A model generated the notes under the pieces. That model saw only the letters and a program-made list of their open reading frames with translations, had not been told where the DNA came from and searched no databases. DNA of 64,000 bases from Lachnospiraceae bacterium (GTDB lineage: Bacteria; Bacillota; Clostridia; Lachnospirales; Lachnospiraceae), in NCBI GenBank assembly GCA_017634975.1, contig JAGBMJ010000018.1, positions 1-64,000 of the forward strand, read 5' to 3'. Made by a program: the position numbers and the translations under genes. Shown here one piece after another: positions 46,524-55,096 of the stretch. Every line of letters begins with the position of its first letter. Position 1 is the first letter of the stretch.

Positions 46524-47543
46524 TTAAAACTCCGTCGTCCCCCGGGAGATCAGATCACAGGCGATCACAACCTTATGCTCAAGATCAGTTTCTTTGTTCT
46601 CGATCACGGAGATCAGACGTTCTACCGTACGGTAACACATATCTACAACATGATTGTCGATACTGGTCAGCTCCGGTTCACAGGCGATCGCCACGCTGCT
46701 GTTGTTATATCCTACGATCGAAAGCTGCTCCGGTACCAACAGTTCTTTTTTAAATGCATATTTCAGCGCACCTACCGCAATCTCATCATTGCTGGCAACC
46801 ACGGCATCAAAAGCAACCTTGCATTCCAGCAGCTGATCCCGTACCGCATGCATATGATTGACCACATGCATCTCCAGTTCCGGGCGTACGGGAATATCAC
46901 GATCTTCCAGTGCCTGTTCATATCCCTTGCGTTTCTTGATCGCACTGTAGGACTGGGAATCCGTCAGATACAGGATACGTTCATGCCCATACTCGATCAG
47001 TTTCGAAGTCGCATCGTAAACTGCCTTCACATCATCGTTCACCGTACAATATATATTCTCGCCCAGCACATTACCGTTGACCACACAGACCGGTACGTTC
47101 TGCGCAGCTTCCCGGATATAATCGGTGTCCTGCACATGCTCGCCGTTACCCGCATAGGTGGATCCTACCAGGATCAGCGCGTCCACATGTTTGGACAGCA
47201 GCATGTTCACGTGGCGCTGTTTTCCTTCCAGTTCAAAACCGCTGCAGCCCAGGATGCAGTCATAACCATATGTCCGCAGTTTTTCCTGCAGATAGTAGAC
47301 CGCATTCGACATATAGATATCCGAGATCGTAGGTACCAGAATCCCTACCGTATGCATCGTATTGAGACCAAGCCCCTGAGCAAATACATTGGGAGTGTAA
47401 CCGACTTCTTCGATCACCGCCATAACTTTTTTGCGGGTTTTCTCACTCACCTTGTCCGAACCGTTCACCACTCGTGAAACTGTTGCTATGGAAACCTTCG
47501 CCATTTCTGCGATGTCATAAATATTGATCACATCTTTTTTCAT
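46524..47543 (-). CDS. LacI-family transcriptional regulator, probable uronate regulator
   Basis: A 339-residue LacI protein with an N-terminal HTH (INIYDIAEMAKVSIATVSRVVNG), hinge (YTPNVFAQGLGL) and sugar-binding core (VGILVPTISDIYMSN; ILVGSTY; VASNDEIAVGALKYA; TSIDN). It is placed among uronate genes and its own promoter carries TGAAAGCGCTTACA, so it probably recognises that palindrome and responds to an intermediate such as KDG; CcpA sharing the sites is an alternative. I start at ATG 47543; GTG 47564 is also in frame, and neither spacing from GAGGAG is ideal. Confidence 0.88.
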   Translation of the reverse strand: MKKDVINIYDIAEMAKVSIATVSRVVNGSDKVSEKTRKKVMAVIEEVGYTPNVFAQGLGLNTMHTVGILVPTISDIYMSNAVYYLQEKLRTYGYDCILGCSGFELEGKQRHVNMLLSKHVDALILVGSTYAGNGEHVQDTDYIREAAQNVPVCVVNGNVLGENIYCTVNDDVKAVYDATSKLIEYGHERILYLTDSQSYSAIKKRKGYEQALEDRDIPVRPELEMHVVNHMHAVRDQLLECKVAFDAVVASNDEIAVGALKYAFKKELLVPEQLSIVGYNNSSVAIACEPELTSIDNHVVDMCYRTVERLISVIENKETDLEHKVVIACDLISRGTTEF

Positions 47544-47565
47544 ATCCGATGATACACTCCTCACT

Positions 47566-47690: not shown

Positions 47691-47719
47691 CAAAAGCGGC
47701 AGCTTTTGCAAGCTGCCGC
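47691..47719 (-). terminator. Terminator of the 2151-residue protein gene
   Basis: A perfect 10-bp stem, GCGGCAGCTT/AAGCTGCCGC (47696-47705, 47710-47719), is followed by TTTTG on the minus strand. Confidence 0.85.
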
Positions 47720-47764: not shown

Positions 47765-50700
47765 TTAGGGTTTCGACGGTACCATAGCCTTGTTGTTACT
47801 CATCACATCATTTACACCATGTTCTGTTTTACCCTTATCTTTTACATTCTCACCTTCTGCTTTGGACCGGGTCAGATTTCTTCTGCTTTCTTTCCGGTCA
47901 CCTTCCAGGAAATTCTTCAGATCATCCCCTTCCAGCTTTTTCCGCTGTCTGTTTTCGCCCGTCTCATTTTCCGCTCTGTTTTCTTTCACTTCGGGCTTTC
48001 CCTGCGGTTCCGGAGAGCGGGACTCTTTCTGCCCATGCTGCACCGCTAATTCTTCCACTTTGCAGAAACGGCGTTCACTCAGGATCTCCTTATTTGACCG
48101 TATATCCTTTGTCATATCCGGCAGACCGATAAAGCTGCCTACAACCTTCTGCTGATCTGCTGCCTCCTGCGCCAGATTATCCATTTTCAGCCTTACAGCG
48201 GTCACATTGATCTTCATAAGATCCTCCGCGGTCCTCATTGGCACAAATCCCGCATCCAGTTCCGAAAGCCGCTTAAGAGCTGCTTTCATATCGGTCGCTT
48301 CCGGAGAGGCCTTCAACTTTCGGATTTCTTTACTCGACAGCTTCTCCTTCGCCCAGCTTCGGATATCCTCATAACTGTTTTCAACTTTTTCGACCACATC
48401 CTCTTCGTACTGGCGCCCCGCAAGCATCATATTAACCGCCTTGGTATCCCGTACCTGTTCTGCCAGAGGCTGATCCGGTTTCAGATTCAGTTTGTAGATC
48501 CCGGTAATCTTCTGATCCAGCAGATTTGTTTTCAGCCGGGTCGCATCTCCCTCCGCAAAACGATCCACCGAACTGACCAGGCGGGTATACTTTCCGTTCC
48601 TTACGGCTTCCTTTGTACATTGTTGCAGCTTTCCGATCGCCGCTGTGATCTCACCCGGGGTTTTCGTGGCATCCAGTTCCGCAACTGTCATAAGAGCATC
48701 ATCCAGTTCCTTCCAGCAGCCCGTTCGTTTCTTCTCCGGGATTTCCGCCCGCAGGCGATAATGCAGATAGTCTGCATTCGACCTCATTTCAAACAGCGGA
48801 GCCACACAACTGTTTATGATACCGTTTTCTTTCTCTACAAATACCGAAGCATCCTCTTTACCTGCATTCATTGCTTTCTGACGGTACGCACGGAATGTAG
48901 CCTCCTGCTCCCGGGTCGTTCTGCCTTCCCCGGCAGCCAGTTTCAGATCCGCAACAGCTTTTCCGATATTTCTCATATCGATTTCACTTACACTGTATCC
49001 ATTCAGATTTTTTGCCGTCTTCTTCAGCTCAGAGACTGCTTCCTGTAGAGGGTCTTTTCCGGATGCCTGCTGTTTCGGCAGCTCCTGCTTCTTCTCTTCC
49101 TCCTTCGGAGCATCTGGCACCGGTTCCGCCTTTGCCTCGGCGATCGCTGCAGACATACCTTTTTCCACGATCTTTTTGACCGAAAGCCCCTGCAGCTGTG
49201 ACTGCGGAGCATAATAGAGCTGTGCCTCCGTCTTCAGCTTTTGTTCTTCTTCAGCGCTGCGCAGCTTTGCTTCGTTCGTAAGTGCCGCCATATTCAGCTT
49301 TTTCGGCAAATATACCTGCTCGGTCAGTACCAGTCCTTCTGCCGTGATCGGTGACACATCCTTCTGGTCTGCCATAGCCGGTCTGCCGCCGTAACGGGAG
49401 ATCATACAGGCATTCTGCATGGTCTCTATCATGTTTTTATTGTCTTTTTGATGCCCTGCACTCAGAACCACACTGCCATCCTGCGCCACGGTTACCGTAT
49501 CGTCCGGATTGCCGATGAGCTTTCCGTCCTTATCCAGGCGGAGGTCGGAACCCCAGATGATCTGCAGCGGTTCATGCGTTCCGGTCCTGGTAATGCGGGA
49601 TACAAAATCATCGATCGGGATCTCACGCATACGATCCTGTGTCATCATACCTTTGACATACAGGGGATCCTGGATCAGCAGCATATCACCCTTGATCCCG
49701 ACGATCTCCAGATAATGCGCACGCCCTTCCTCCTTGATCACCAGAGGCGAATGATCGATATAAATGGCCTTCTCCACCGTCTGGCGTACCATCTCTTTGG
49801 CACTCGCAGCATACTGCGCTTCTGTAATATTGGCTGCTTTGGTTTCCGGATTGTCAAAGTGTGCGATGTCCAATACGCGCACCATGGTATTGGGTGCAAA
49901 ATGGAATACCGGATCCAGTGTTTCCGTAATGATCGCACCGCTGTCGGTATTCAGGATCTCATCCGCATATTTATAATCACCTTTCTGCAGTCCGGCTTCG
50001 ATCGCCGCACCCTTGTAGTTTTCCGGACGGAACGCACGGATGTCTTCCTGTACCACACCTTCGATGCCGCGGCTCTGTATGATCTGCTGCAGACCTACCG
50101 ACCAGCAGCCGTTATAGCTGCTCTGCGCTGCCGGCTGCTCGATACGCAGTCTCTCGTATCCTTTTTCATCGGTATAGATCTCCGGCTTATTTCCCCTTGT
50201 TCCGCTTGTCCGCAGTTTTTCATCCTGCTCTTTTTGGATCTTTGCTGCCTTATCGATGGTCTCGATATGCTTGAGCACAAATGCCTTATCTGCAGAATTC
50301 AGTTCTGCCTGATGCGCATCCAGATAGGCATGCAGTTCATTTGCATCTCCGGAAAGCGTCACCGCGGTCGGCAATATGCTCGGATATCTTCCGGCTGAAC
50401 GCGAATGCGGAGCATCCCACTCCTGGAACGGATTGTAATATGTGTTGCCGGTCGAAGCATAAGTCTGCGCCTGCTCTGCCTCTTTGTCCGTCATACCCAT
50501 ATAGATCCTGTGCATGGCATCCTCAGACAGATTCATCTTCCCATAGACTGCCTTGAACTGATCAAATGTAAAATTTCCGCCAAAGCCGGATTCCGCGTTT
50601 GGATTGATCGCCCATCCGCTCTGTGATCCCTGCACCGCCTGCGTTTCCGGCTGCCGTGTCTCTTCCGCAGGCTGCGTCTGCTGTACCGGTGCTCTCCAGT

Positions 50701-53700
50701 CAAATTCGTTGCTGCGCGTATGCAGCTGTCCTTCCGGCTGCGTTGCTTTTTCCTGTGCGGAACTTCCGATAAAACTGATCGAATCGGTATGGGTTACCGC
50801 AAACTGTGTGTGCGCAGCGGTATTTGTTACCGTTTCCTTCTGTGGCGCTTCTTCTTTCTGCTTTTCGGCGGCTTCCAGTTTCTTACGGTACTCATCACGG
50901 ATCTGCATCGTACGGAACACCTGATCATCCAGATTCTCATTTCCATCCAGACGTCCGTGCGAGATCGCTTGCATGGTATTGTTCCATTCCCCGGCCATTT
51001 CCGCCAGATCCAATGCAGTATTGTAACGGCTTACGCCTTTGCTCAGGATTCCGGCAAAACGCTGGTGATCGATCTTTTCCTGATAATTCTGTGCAGCATA
51101 CCTTACATTGGCGATGGCATTTTCCACTTCAAACGGCGTATTCTTATTTCCGAGTGTCGCGATCGACTCCAGAGCCGTATAGATTGCCCGGTACTCATCC
51201 GATCCGCTTCTGCCCCCCAGTTTTTTATCCGCATCCATTTCTTTAAGTTTTCTGGCCGCTGCAGATTTGATCTCCTGCAGACTCTGAATGTAGTTTTCCG
51301 CGCTGTCCACGCTCTCCTGCAGATTCTTTGCAACTGCCGACGGCCGGATATCATATCCCGGATCACTTTCGCTCTTTCCGTTTCCAAACTCGATCGCCAG
51401 GGTATTGGTGAATCCGGAGATCCCGTCCATCAGATACCGTCTGCGTTCTGCGGGAGTGTTTCCAAAACCTCCTTTGCGAATATACTCTTCATGGAATACC
51501 CGTGTATCATGAGCAAACACCTCTTCACCATTGGAGTATTTAATGCTGCTATTCCCGATACCCGTCAGAAGCATCCTCTCCGCACTCAGCTGATCCTCTA
51601 CCGCAGACCCCTTCAGCATCCTGTTTGCAAGGATCCTGCTGGCATGATAATCCTTAGCCATATCCTGATAGACCGGTTCCACCTGCACTTCACCCTTGCG
51701 GATCCTTGCAGCCAGCTCCTCCGACTGCTGTGAAAAATGAATGTTATCTTCTACATTGCGCCGGTTGAGCTCCCGGGCGACTGCATCATAGGTTTCCTGC
51801 CCGTGAATATAGACTCCGTTATCCTGCCGGGCAAAAAGATCCGTCGTAAATTGATCATACGCCTCTTTAAACGCTTCTTCTTCCTCGGTCAGGCCTTCCT
51901 CCATCGCTTTATTCTGCAGCATATAATCTGCTTTTCCGGCCTCGAGCAGGGCATCCGTAAACTCTCTGTAGTTATTTGTCCGCTTTGCCTCTTCGAGCAT
52001 TTCTGACAGACATGCCGTCACATCATAACGGATACGATAATCCCTCTGGCTCTGCCGGATCCGTTCCTCCGCCATTTGCCGTGATGCTTCTGTCTGCTCA
52101 CGCTGCTCTTCACTGCCGATCTCACGAAGCTTATCATAGCCCTCGTTCATGGCCTTCTGCATCTGCTGATACTCCGGCTTATTCCGGTCCTCCGGATGCG
52201 CCTCCAATACATTCCTATACAGCTGTGTTCTGGCCTGCAAAACATCCGCCGTATCAATGGCAAGCACATTCGCCGGATCCTTCTTCATCGCATCGATCTT
52301 TTGGTAGATCCGCCCGGAACGATCCATGATACCTGCATAATCCACCGGCGTCTTCTGCAGATATGCCTCTGCATCAAAGCCCGGTCCGGTAATCCTGCCA
52401 TATTTATCCGTCTGCGGAATGCCGCTTAACATACCGGACAGCTTTCGGTCCTCGTCCGATGCCAGCATCAGATTCTGCAGGGTCTGCTGTCTGGCGGCAC
52501 GCTCCGCCGTCTTCATCTCACCATTTCCGCGGGCAAAATAGGAAAACTTATTCTCCCATGATTTGGAGATCACATCAGACAGATGTTCATACAGCGTGAT
52601 CCCGGTAAAAAGTCTGTTCTGTTCCTTCTTTTCCGGATCCCCTTCCAGCAGATAGGGCAGCTGCAGAAGTCTTCTTCCCTCTGCTTCCTCCACACTGCCC
52701 ACAAATTCTTCTCTGGCAGTCTCGGATCTTCCGCTTCCGGAAAGCAGCTCCAGTGTATCCTCCAGACTCAGGCTTTCCGCCTTCTTTTCCACGCTGTTCT
52801 TTTCATAACGGTCAACAAATGCGTCTTCCAATGTCTTCACAGGATTTGCCAGAAATTCCTCCAGATCCAGTCCCTGTGTCTTCCACTGCATGTACGCAAG
52901 AAAAACGCCGTTGACCTGTGCCGTACTTACGATATCACCGGTAAATTCATACGGCTTATCCACATCTCTCCAGCTGTCCATATTCCCCGGCATCTGCGTC
53001 ATTTCCTGATCAAACGACTCCTTCGCGATCCGGTAAAGTTCCTGCATATCTTCGACGGTCTTCGCATACTGTTTCTGCTCTGCAATGATGTCTTCCGGTA
53101 CCGGCGGCTCCTTCTTCAGGGCATCCCGCAGTTTTTTCTGCTGAGCCATCAGCTTGTTCAGACCATAAACCTTGTCTCCATCCTCATACCGGAGGTCAAA
53201 TCCATACTCCTCCAGATGCATCTCTTCCATTTTCCGAAACATCTTCCGCAGACCGTCTCTGGTCTTATCGGAGATCAAAACGCCGTTTCTTGCAGTATCA
53301 AACGCTTCCGTCTTATCCTCTGCGATCGTAAGGATCCCGGGAACTGCATCATCCTCTACCGTCAGTTTGTCATATTTTCCGTTCTCATATTGCGGACGTA
53401 ATACCTGCATTGTATTCTTATCTTTTCTTACCTGTACGGTCGATGCATGGTTATCCAGATTTTCAAGTTCGTCTCTTACGGAAGGTTTTGTTTCTGTGAT
53501 ATGTTTTGCCGCATACTCCAACGCATCCTCATATTCTTTTTTCTTCTCCGGGTCGTTTTTGATCTTCTCCGGCATCTGCTCTTTCAGCTCATCGCAATAC
53601 TCTTTCATCGGATAGGTAACCGGATCCTTTATATCCCTCTCATATGGATCCTGATATTCTTCGATCTCTTTCAGGATACTCTGTTTTTCCTGCGGATCCA

Positions 53701-54220
53701 GAGACTGCTCCAGGGAATCCAAAAATGCACCCGCATCACTTTCCTCGGACAGATTATCAAAACTGAAAAAAAGTTTTTTTGCCAGCAGATCATCCAATTC
53801 CTCCTGACGGATCTTTTCGTTCCGGATCCACCCATCCAGTAATGTCTTCCGCTTTTCATGATCTCCCAGAAAATTCCTTCGCGTCATGTAATCCAGACCC
53901 TGCCACAGATCAGGGTGCTTATGAGTTAGCAGTTCCTGAATATCATAAGCTAAACCAAGGCCCTCGGAATACTTCCGGATACTCTCCTCTGCTTTCTCCT
54001 CACCCACCGAATGACCATACGCACGAAAGATCTCCTCATTGGTATATTTGTGACTCAGGATCCGGGAACGGATCTCATTGTGCTTTGCGTTTGCTTTTCG
54101 TTTGTTTCTTTCAAATTCCAGAAACTCCTGCGTCTGCGTTGCCGGATCCGGTGTCGTTGCATTTTGATACTTTTGGTATTCCTCCAGGATCTGCTTATAT
54201 TTATTCGCGATATCTCCCAT
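47765..54220 (-). CDS. Giant cytosolic protein with a papain/C39-like peptidase domain, function unknown
   Basis: A 2151-residue protein with no signal peptide or TM segment. Residues 1-1150 are charged and helical. A Pro/Gln/Thr-rich linker (about 1155-1230) leads to a peptidase-like domain: Q1366 six residues before C1372 (QSSYNGCW), H1502 (GRAHYLEIVG) and D1518 (LIQDPLY). The Gln-Cys spacing and order are those of papain-fold enzymes, closest to the C39-like group. Residues 1600-2070 are again helical and the tail is very charged. GGAAGAAGG precedes the ATG. A single-gene transcript between terminators. Possibilities include a toxin-like effector, a structural protein with self-cleavage, or a defence protein; none is shown. 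Confidence 0.6.
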   Translation of the reverse strand: MGDIANKYKQILEEYQKYQNATTPDPATQTQEFLEFERNKRKANAKHNEIRSRILSHKYTNEEIFRAYGHSVGEEKAEESIRKYSEGLGLAYDIQELLTHKHPDLWQGLDYMTRRNFLGDHEKRKTLLDGWIRNEKIRQEELDDLLAKKLFFSFDNLSEESDAGAFLDSLEQSLDPQEKQSILKEIEEYQDPYERDIKDPVTYPMKEYCDELKEQMPEKIKNDPEKKKEYEDALEYAAKHITETKPSVRDELENLDNHASTVQVRKDKNTMQVLRPQYENGKYDKLTVEDDAVPGILTIAEDKTEAFDTARNGVLISDKTRDGLRKMFRKMEEMHLEEYGFDLRYEDGDKVYGLNKLMAQQKKLRDALKKEPPVPEDIIAEQKQYAKTVEDMQELYRIAKESFDQEMTQMPGNMDSWRDVDKPYEFTGDIVSTAQVNGVFLAYMQWKTQGLDLEEFLANPVKTLEDAFVDRYEKNSVEKKAESLSLEDTLELLSGSGRSETAREEFVGSVEEAEGRRLLQLPYLLEGDPEKKEQNRLFTGITLYEHLSDVISKSWENKFSYFARGNGEMKTAERAARQQTLQNLMLASDEDRKLSGMLSGIPQTDKYGRITGPGFDAEAYLQKTPVDYAGIMDRSGRIYQKIDAMKKDPANVLAIDTADVLQARTQLYRNVLEAHPEDRNKPEYQQMQKAMNEGYDKLREIGSEEQREQTEASRQMAEERIRQSQRDYRIRYDVTACLSEMLEEAKRTNNYREFTDALLEAGKADYMLQNKAMEEGLTEEEEAFKEAYDQFTTDLFARQDNGVYIHGQETYDAVARELNRRNVEDNIHFSQQSEELAARIRKGEVQVEPVYQDMAKDYHASRILANRMLKGSAVEDQLSAERMLLTGIGNSSIKYSNGEEVFAHDTRVFHEEYIRKGGFGNTPAERRRYLMDGISGFTNTLAIEFGNGKSESDPGYDIRPSAVAKNLQESVDSAENYIQSLQEIKSAAARKLKEMDADKKLGGRSGSDEYRAIYTALESIATLGNKNTPFEVENAIANVRYAAQNYQEKIDHQRFAGILSKGVSRYNTALDLAEMAGEWNNTMQAISHGRLDGNENLDDQVFRTMQIRDEYRKKLEAAEKQKEEAPQKETVTNTAAHTQFAVTHTDSISFIGSSAQEKATQPEGQLHTRSNEFDWRAPVQQTQPAEETRQPETQAVQGSQSGWAINPNAESGFGGNFTFDQFKAVYGKMNLSEDAMHRIYMGMTDKEAEQAQTYASTGNTYYNPFQEWDAPHSRSAGRYPSILPTAVTLSGDANELHAYLDAHQAELNSADKAFVLKHIETIDKAAKIQKEQDEKLRTSGTRGNKPEIYTDEKGYERLRIEQPAAQSSYNGCWSVGLQQIIQSRGIEGVVQEDIRAFRPENYKGAAIEAGLQKGDYKYADEILNTDSGAIITETLDPVFHFAPNTMVRVLDIAHFDNPETKAANITEAQYAASAKEMVRQTVEKAIYIDHSPLVIKEEGRAHYLEIVGIKGDMLLIQDPLYVKGMMTQDRMREIPIDDFVSRITRTGTHEPLQIIWGSDLRLDKDGKLIGNPDDTVTVAQDGSVVLSAGHQKDNKNMIETMQNACMISRYGGRPAMADQKDVSPITAEGLVLTEQVYLPKKLNMAALTNEAKLRSAEEEQKLKTEAQLYYAPQSQLQGLSVKKIVEKGMSAAIAEAKAEPVPDAPKEEEKKQELPKQQASGKDPLQEAVSELKKTAKNLNGYSVSEIDMRNIGKAVADLKLAAGEGRTTREQEATFRAYRQKAMNAGKEDASVFVEKENGIINSCVAPLFEMRSNADYLHYRLRAEIPEKKRTGCWKELDDALMTVAELDATKTPGEITAAIGKLQQCTKEAVRNGKYTRLVSSVDRFAEGDATRLKTNLLDQKITGIYKLNLKPDQPLAEQVRDTKAVNMMLAGRQYEEDVVEKVENSYEDIRSWAKEKLSSKEIRKLKASPEATDMKAALKRLSELDAGFVPMRTAEDLMKINVTAVRLKMDNLAQEAADQQKVVGSFIGLPDMTKDIRSNKEILSERRFCKVEELAVQHGQKESRSPEPQGKPEVKENRAENETGENRQRKKLEGDDLKNFLEGDRKESRRNLTRSKAEGENVKDKGKTEHGVNDVMSNNKAMVPSKP

Positions 54221-54299
54221 GAACCTTCTTCCTTTCTGAAATGATAATTTGTGGTATACCCGCCATCCACATGTACGTTACTGCTTATCATATCACTCC

Positions 54300-54319
54300 A
54301 AGTGCAAGCAAAGTGCAAG
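54300..54319. promoter_or_regulatory. Direct repeats upstream of the giant gene
   Basis: AAGTGCAAG occurs at 54300-54308 and 54311-54319, repeating with an 11-bp period (one helical turn), about 80 bases upstream of the start codon. A weak -10 (TATGAT, 54285-54290 on the minus strand) follows. Candidate activator or repressor site. Confidence 0.45.
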
Positions 54320-54445: not shown

Positions 54446-55096
54446 TTATTTGCGGTTTGCCTTTACGATCGCAGCTGCTTCCGCAACCTTCTTCTCGATC
54501 TCATCGAACTGGCCGGCTTTGATCATATCGCCCTTGACCATCCATGAGCCTCCGCAGCAGAAGATCTTGTCATTTTTCAGATATTCTACCACGTTTGTCG
54601 CATTGATACCGCCGGTCGGCATAAAGCGCAGAGCGGTCAGTGCTGCACCGATAGCCTTGATCATTGCCAGACCACCTGCATTCTCTGCCGGGAAAAACTT
54701 CACATGCGTCAGACCCAGACGGATGGCTTTCATCATCTCACTAGCGGTCTGGGTACCCGGACATACCGGAATATCCTTCTCCAGACAGTATTTTACGATC
54801 TCTTCATCCAGACCGGGTGCCACGATAAACTTTGCACCGGCTGCTACAGCACGGTCTACCTGATCGATCGTCAGAACAGTACCTGCGCCTACCAGCATGT
54901 CCGGAAATTTTTCTGCCATAATACGGATGGATTCCTCTGCTGCTGCCGTGCGGAAAGTAACTTCTGCTGCCGGCAGTCCTCCCTGCATCAGGGCTTTACC
55001 CAAAGGTTCCGCATCCTTTGCATCATTCAAAACCACAACGGGAATGATCCCGACTTCCTCAAATTTCTGAAATACTGCATCTGCTTTTGCACTCAT
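54446..55096 (-). CDS. eda: KDPG aldolase
   Basis: This 216-residue TIM-barrel class I aldolase splits 2-keto-3-deoxy-6-phosphogluconate into pyruvate and glyceraldehyde-3-phosphate. The catalytic Glu45 (AAEVTFRT), phosphate-loop GAGT (70-73) and Schiff-base Lys133 (HVKFFPAE) are present. Last step of the uronate pathway in this window. AGGAG precedes ATG 55096, 78 bases after kdgK, in the same operon. Confidence 0.95.
   Translation of the reverse strand: MSAKADAVFQKFEEVGIIPVVVLNDAKDAEPLGKALMQGGLPAAEVTFRTAAAEESIRIMAEKFPDMLVGAGTVLTIDQVDRAVAAGAKFIVAPGLDEEIVKYCLEKDIPVCPGTQTASEMMKAIRLGLTHVKFFPAENAGGLAMIKAIGAALTALRFMPTGGINATNVVEYLKNDKIFCCGGSWMVKGDMIKAGQFDEIEKKVAEAAAIVKANRK

Follow-up and report, generated by a model that had tools for sequence, protein, structure and literature searches.

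A giant protein with a papain-like domain in a Lachnospiraceae genome is a candidate effector of a type IV secretion system with which it shares a putative promoter element

What does a single gene of more than two thousand codons do between a transcriptional regulator and the enzyme genes of sugar-acid metabolism? The gene in question lies on the minus strand (as do its parts and flanking features given below) at 47765..54220 of the window, by which we mean the whole stretch of DNA analysed (64,000 nucleotides; positions 1 to 64,000 of contig JAGBMJ010000018.1, Lachnospiraceae bacterium assembly GCA_017634975.1, probably from a rumen bacterium). By the list of open reading frames (ORFs) and its translation it is a genuine gene of 2151 codons. 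An original prediction, made from the letters of the window, had its coordinates and length right, gave no strand, and took the product for a cytosolic giant with a buried peptidase and no export signal, perhaps a self-processing effector, an abortive-infection protein or a scaffold. That prediction recognised no family name, and none was reached in our searches: with the 2151-residue protein as query, Pfam, PADLOC and the PDB sequences yielded nothing at E<1, and the NCBIfam search gave a single insignificant match (E 0.18). We propose that it is probably an effector of a type IV secretion system (T4SS), with a cysteine protease as its warhead. Five lines of sequence comparison appear to tie the family of giant proteins to which it belongs to a T4SS, namely co-occurrence, a shared promoter element, related tails, co-location and the presence of other warheads.

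The candidate warhead is a conserved papain-like block at residues 1217-1700 (49121..50572), recognised by comparing relatives. The originally proposed active-site residues and the six-residue gap from Gln to Cys stood up: Q1366 at the oxyanion-hole position (codon 50123..50125), C1372 at the nucleophile position (50105..50107), H1502 (49715..49717) and D1518 at the third catalytic position (49667..49669). When the full-length protein served as blast query, 15 domains were found; Q, H and D are each conserved in 15/15 of them and C in 13/15. The giant has the spacings Q-x5-C-W and H-x15-D, which are those of papain. A wider set of 74 domains comprised the window domain and 73 of 82 domain matches, with weaker, near-duplicate and X-containing ones omitted. 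There, H is present in 74/74 and position 1518 is D in 51, N in 13, E in 6 and S in 4, so that 64 of the 74 have D or N at the end of an ordered Gln, Cys, His, Asp/Asn site. The Q, G, W and S columns (74/74) and the C column (72/74, C/G in the pattern) of this set are largely fixed by construction, because the collection scan specified them through the pattern Q[STN]Sx[NQA]G[CG]WS[VC]; the claim that Q and C are conserved therefore rests on the blast-found domains. An AlphaFold2 model of residues 1270-1620 (pLDDT 90.4, pTM 0.91) has the papain-like fold that had been anticipated, and aligns with papain-fold proteases, papain included, across the catalytic region. Conservation beyond chance and the predicted structure thus support a papain-like (clan CA) fold and active site, from which we infer that the domain would act as a cysteine protease. 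No Pfam model was above its cut-off for the domain alone, the only match being C39 at 12.8 bits (cut-off 22); weak Pfam matches at E up to 10 were to C39_2 in 8/14 members (best 6e-4) and to C70 in 4/14 (best 2e-3).

A link to secretion lies upstream of the gene. At 54287..54318, 66 nt before the ATG, is the element TTGCACTTTGCTTGCACTTGGAGTGATATGAT (TTGCAC-N5-TTGCAC-N9-TAnnnT), in which a -10-like box follows a direct repeat; we spotted this element by eye upstream of many giants, and it also precedes the T4SS pilin gene and VirD4 operons. In the window's own genome (G000) the element occurs 19 times exactly, a further 2 times with one mismatch and 9 times with two, compared with 6 copies at up to two mismatches for a reversed control pattern; four of the exact copies are on the contig that encodes the T4SS and one precedes the window gene. 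Of 35 genomes of the genus, six (G000, G006, G010, G020, G021 and G032) contain 85 exact copies between them and the remaining 29 contain none; across the same 35 genomes the reversed control, with up to one mismatch allowed, matched 3 times in total. Giants are present in 6/6 of the genomes with exact copies, and in 5/5 of those that have a pilin match the pilin gene and a DUF1292-Rce1-VirD4 operon are each preceded by an exact copy. Two identical copies (C118/C137) were merged to leave 84 distinct sites. The first genes after them, classed by a simple hydropathy rule, encode large soluble proteins in 35 cases, pilins and DUF1292 proteins in 5 each, small soluble proteins in 12, secreted or membrane proteins in 24 and membrane proteins in the other 3; these genes were picked by script, and some picks are doubtful (L258, ferredoxin-like, 498 residues, was counted as large soluble, and the start of L256 is 333 nt away). 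A variant repeat of the GTGCAAC type was seen by eye before the T4SS pilin gene (L166, upstream of 3222) and a papain giant (L062, upstream of 8819) of G014, the only one of the four giant-bearing genomes lacking the exact form in which it was seen. Judged by its sequence and positions, the element would be a working promoter, and the window gene very probably belongs to the T4SS regulon. In its own genome the element also precedes chemoreceptor, SpoIIE phosphatase and lipoprotein-like genes (L219, L226, L222, L224, L225), and the set of genes hints at a chemotaxis-plus-injection regulon.

The T4SS of the same genome is encoded on a 35-kb contig (C145) that carries VirB4, VirD4 and the pilin, along with a CAAX-type Rce1-like protein, STAS and DUF1292 proteins, SpoIIE, an RsbW-like ATPase, a histidine kinase and a response regulator. 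The Pfam match for VirB4 was obtained on the G032 copy, and the VirB6-like proteins of C145 were named by appearance, the one scanned having no Pfam match. Relaxase PF03432, the one relaxase family searched for, did not turn up on the T4SS contigs, which may be incomplete, in any of 8 genomes, and was absent from the whole genome in 4 of the 8; the T4SS may all the same transfer DNA.

Giants and T4SS genes tend to occur in the same genomes. With the pilin called as PF18895 above cut-off, 10 of the 35 genus genomes have the pilin and 10 have giants, both being found in 9, a giant only in 1, a pilin only in 1 and neither in 24 (Fisher p 1.4e-6). The genome with a giant and no pilin (G020) is 72% complete, and the pilin without a giant (G018) is on a 12-kb contig where we saw, by eye, no other T4SS genes; pilin matches below cut-off occur in two further genomes, G012 and G030. 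A survey of the bacterial family (299 genomes from 298 genera; papain domain at E<1e-30, this VirB4 type at E<1e-60) found both in 6 genomes, the papain domain only in 1, VirB4 only in 10 and neither in 282 (p 5.8e-8). The papain threshold of 1e-30 was set after the results were seen, and when all 11 papain matches at E<0.001 are taken the overlap with VirB4 remains 6 (p 3.4e-6). Because the genomes are related, all of these p-values overstate independence.

Co-location points the same way. The papain domain is encoded at 79 loci, counting the best 80 of 82 relatives, and the flanks that we fetched contain core T4SS genes at 5/79, cluster-specific markers at 13/79 and any marker including SpoIIE at 14/79, compared with rough chance rates per locus of 1.2% for core genes and 1.9% for markers. 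Giants are co-located with T4SS genes at L060/L142, L062+L166, L078, L081, L129 and L133. VirD4 directly follows the papain giant at L078, a papain giant is upstream of the pilin and VirD4 at L081, at L133 one has VirD4 and the pilin no more than about 7 kb away, and papain giants of G033 and G014 lie about 4 and 10 kb from a T4SS pilin. The window gene itself is not adjacent to the T4SS. At L129:9884-12688 (Ruminococcus flavefaciens YRD2003) we observed a papain domain fused to about 470 C-terminal residues of VirD4, the N-terminal part of VirD4 being missing, which is perhaps a natural deletion or an assembly error.

The C-terminal 60 residues of the window protein (47768..47947), a putative translocation signal, resemble the tails of otherwise unrelated giants. 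We compared 177 proteins of at least 400 residues from the genus loci, keeping 5'-open ones and dropping 3'-open ones and identical copies, and seven protein pairs were similar in their last 70 residues without similarity in their bodies, all within the giant class and the window protein included. A 13-column motif, hand-made from 17 of 20 tails, runs from basic to hydrophobic residues and then D/E-L, and reached p<0.05 in 13/17 held-out own tails. In the window protein it reads RKKLEGDDLKNFL (residues 2093-2105, 47906..47944), with a leave-one-out p = 0.03 against the shuffled tail and 1/22 internal windows scoring as high. A fairer test took proteins found by the promoter element alone, and there the motif was at p<0.05 in 10/19 large soluble, 2/16 small soluble and 0/28 membrane or secreted ones, those passing including at least two (L246 and L223) that resemble a training protein (L039). 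Most tails are also basic. For the 62 of 80 papain ORFs that are complete at both ends, the mean net charge of the last 30 residues is +4.0 and 55/62 are positive, compared with a mean of +0.08 for 426 other ORFs of the same loci (at least 200 residues, possibly including spurious ORFs); the last 30 residues are net positive in 25/28 complete large soluble proteins found by the promoter element.

Other giants carry other candidate warheads. One of 31 giants scanned matches Pfam Fic (1.4e-6), a 1350-residue regulon member of the window's own genome matches PI3/PI4 kinase at 47.3 bits (cut-off 27.1) and Fam20C at 31.6 (cut-off 26.8), and giants of other genomes match Fam20C at 31.6 bits and calpain at 37.1 bits (cut-off 23.8); most giants scanned have no recognised Pfam domain. 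Fic, kinase and calpain-type domains are known from effectors directed at eukaryotes. A toxin that the same T4SS used against rival bacteria would differ from the effector that we propose in its target only, and the T4SS linkage serves both. Among Gram-negatives, T4SSs that kill bacteria are known (PMC6536674, PMC10933484). Such a toxin is nevertheless unlikely here: the gene is solitary, the intergenic gaps on its two sides (200 and 225 bp) are too small for the usual immunity gene, which could lie elsewhere, and other giants match, though only partially, domain types of eukaryote-directed effectors, with the reservation that Fic acts in bacteria too. We put the chance of a eukaryotic target at about even.

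Comparison of sequences indicates that the window protein is a member of a mosaic family of giant soluble proteins of ruminant Lachnospiraceae in which domains appear to have been swapped. Its N-terminal module, residues 1-157 (53750..54220), is common to the L048/L049 relatives and a 225-residue ORF in L050. A 'chassis' of residues 157-1112 (50885..53752) has 35-37% identity to the second part of four paralogues with the Fic motif HSFKDGNGR, one of them in the same genome, which align to the window protein only from residue 157 on. Three of the four are complete, at about 1530-1550 residues, and the Fic motif is nearer the N-terminus than the shared part. Residues 963-1100 (50921..51334) form a module similar to several other giants and to proteins of about 500 residues. 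Complete papain-domain ORFs range from 568 to 3733 residues. The sources of relatives, where named, are largely ruminant, the organisms being mostly Lachnospiraceae plus Ruminococcus, Oscillospiraceae, Eubacterium and others, and the domain is also present in named strains not labelled as metagenome-assembled genomes; carriers of a papain giant include Butyrivibrio sp. WCD3002, Eubacterium ruminantium FB3002 and Lachnospiraceae LC2019. Among the top-ranked literature matches we found no published account of the family. The variation among giants bears on whether they could be accessory or structural components, whether in the T4SS or in some cell-surface machine, and not cargo at all. The T4SS cluster encodes an 812-residue protein whose tail motif is related and the regulon contains surface and chemotaxis proteins, as a structural role would have it, but the giants vary in number and type among genomes, are scattered and have swapped domains, and we regard such a role as improbable.

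Some further large and small proteins were observed around the family. A giant of at least 4430 residues (L063:5709-19001, G024:C189) has no Pfam match, and its tail resembles that of a 3248-residue protein of L061. Large proteins are encoded one after another on contig G000:C11 (L042, L043); some of them match papain-family PF00112, and they share a GGEITRxVVxGVVQ-like C-terminal end and form a family separate from the giants. Small proteins of 150-190 residues are encoded beside giants or behind the promoter element (L058:6761-7210, L060:5112-5678, L217:381-941, L045:14110-14559); two of them have weak YbjN matches below cut-off, and they are possible chaperones.

The main idea of the original prediction, a cytosolic giant that processes itself or serves as a scaffold or stress protein with no role in secretion, now seems very unlikely. 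It would fit a protein in which no hydrophobic N-terminus was evident on inspection, the protease domain is buried, and the long body is mostly helical (also in a low-confidence model of residues 150-720, pLDDT 66). It fits poorly with a promoter element common to T4SS genes, with shared tails and with co-occurrence of giants and T4SS. No observation points to self-processing, and abortive infection is left unsupported by the lack of a PADLOC match at E<1, by the lack of a relative in viral contigs, 50,697 phage records or 72,556 plasmid records, and by a promoter element held in common with a secretion system; the 'effector' option is the one that our results favour. We give very little credence to a polyvalent protein that escorts the DNA of a conjugative element into the recipient, since giant size and the T4SS link, as in Firmicutes conjugative elements described in part of PMC5512222, and an LPD22 match (E 0.0093) in one of 21 giants scanned stand against a Pfam search that found no polyvalent domain in the window protein, the absence of matches in the same phage and plasmid records (integrated elements not mapped), T4SS contigs of 8 genomes on which PF03432 was not found, and a location among metabolic genes.

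Several observations weigh against a T4SS effector with a protease warhead. The nucleophile Cys is replaced by G in 2/15 blast-found domains. The exact promoter element is absent from 4/10 giant-bearing genus genomes (G013, G014, G024, G033), and 9 one-mismatch matches occur in 7 of the 29 genus genomes without exact copies; moreover, the regulon includes non-exported proteins, and co-regulation is therefore no proof of export. Related genomes are non-independent samples, 10/16 VirB4-bearing genomes of the family survey have no papain match, one papain-bearing genome (G251) lacks this VirB4, and the papain loci with core T4SS genes in their flanks number five of 79. The 17 training sites of the tail motif were chosen by eye, the motif fits just 13/69 papain giants outside the genus, and the last 30 residues of the window protein have a net charge of 0, though the motif is present just upstream. 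Profile coverage of the other candidate warheads is partial (calpain 163-294/297, PI3/PI4 kinase 133-176/241 in the best stretch, Fam20C 80-136/218), so the calpain, PI3/PI4 kinase and Fam20C activities are uncertain.

We still consider export of the window protein by the T4SS likely: a carrier of a papain-like domain shares its control signal with the secretion system and is therefore probably its cargo. The T4SS would perhaps be dedicated to protein transport, and the giant would be its effector, a papain-like cysteine protease warhead set within a very long and mainly helical body with a C-terminal tail as export signal. The two-component regulator of the T4SS locus perhaps binds the shared promoter element, which would co-activate the giant and the T4SS together with chemoreceptors, lipoproteins and those giants whose warheads differ. 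Once a target cell is touched, recognition of the tail by the VirD4 ATPase would send the giant through the channel; inside that cell, the protease may cut or modify a target protein.

The location of the gene, too, suggests an insertion site more than a role in sugar-acid metabolism. As originally described, it has its own ribosome-binding-site-like sequence, AAGGAAGAAGG (54224..54234), before the ATG, and a terminator-like hairpin with a 10-bp stem 3' of the stop codon (47696..47719). It lies between a LacI-type regulator gene (46524..47564) and an eda-like gene (54446..55096); judging by sequence, we take the flanking genes as probably encoding this regulator, 2-keto-3-deoxy-6-phosphogluconate (KDPG) aldolase and 2-keto-3-deoxygluconate (KDG) kinase. 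The original prediction was that the gene interrupts a uronate regulon. The same LacI-type regulator adjoins other members of the giant family in G032, G021 and G010, and at loci L038, L051 and L059, with an eda-like gene on the far side in G010 and in L051 and a kdgK-like gene in G032, the G021 sequence examined stopping short of the far side; the window gene is therefore better read as the occupant of an insertion hotspot than as part of uronate metabolism. The assembly contains a second copy of the gene and its region (G000:C118:24573-31025, L044) whose protein is 100% identical, which may be strain redundancy in an assembly with 7.46% contamination.

T4SS protein cargo has rarely been shown in this class of bacteria. 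The passages of a 2025 review that bear on the question (PMC12857230) assign nearly all known functions of Gram-positive T4SSs to DNA transfer, treat dedicated effector-translocating T4SSs in these bacteria as a long-standing question, and cite one case, SspA-1 of Streptococcus suis. A machine, candidate cargo found by its promoter element, a candidate export tail, partly recognisable warheads and named strains make the question of a dedicated translocator directly testable. We suggest, tentatively and at somewhat less than even chances, that ruminant Lachnospiraceae and relatives possess a dedicated non-conjugative Gram-positive T4SS. Its dispersed, Legionella-like arsenal of giants would comprise proteases of papain-like and calpain-like type, Fic enzymes, and kinases resembling PI3/PI4 kinase and Fam20C. 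A single promoter would co-ordinate this arsenal with chemotaxis, and injection would be into eukaryotes, whether partners or prey, for example host epithelium, fungi or the ciliates of the rumen. Secretion systems are mentioned for proteobacterial associates of ciliates in part of PMC6079354. If our suggestion is true, Firmicutes of ruminants would use injection to affect other cells, with consequences for rumen predation, symbiosis and host interaction.

Among known peptidases, the closest to the giant's domain are those of clan CA, namely Pfam Peptidase_C39_2 / C39, Peptidase_C70 (AvrRpt2), UfSP/ZUFSP and papain; it differs from these families in scoring below the Pfam cut-offs and in the length of its complete carrier ORFs. 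Like the giants, the polyvalent proteins of Firmicutes conjugative elements are giant, multidomain and T4SS-linked, as described in part of PMC5512222, but no domain in common with them was found in the window protein, which is not encoded on a recognised mobile element. The Bartonella effector proteins (Beps) of the VirB/VirD4 T4SS are, according to sections of PMC8714903, modular, most with an N-terminal Fic domain, and have a bipartite C-terminal signal with a positively charged tail end, in a layout of Fic domain, BID domain and basic tail. The Fic motif of some giants and the basic tails of most recall the Beps, from which the giants differ in their Gram-positive-type host, their mostly far larger size and their papain-like and kinase-like domains. 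The 89K T4SS of S. suis, a Gram-positive VirB/VirD4-type system, secretes SspA-1, the one effector reported in the parts of PMC4897608 and PMC12857230 that deal with it, and also transfers its own DNA. The system described here differs from 89K in having T4SS contigs on which no PF03432 relaxase was found, many giant candidates and a shared promoter element. In the Dot/Icm system of Legionella, a T4SS of a different type, one secretion machine serves many mosaic effectors. It is this organisation that the giants resemble, with one machine and a repertoire of many mosaic candidate effectors.

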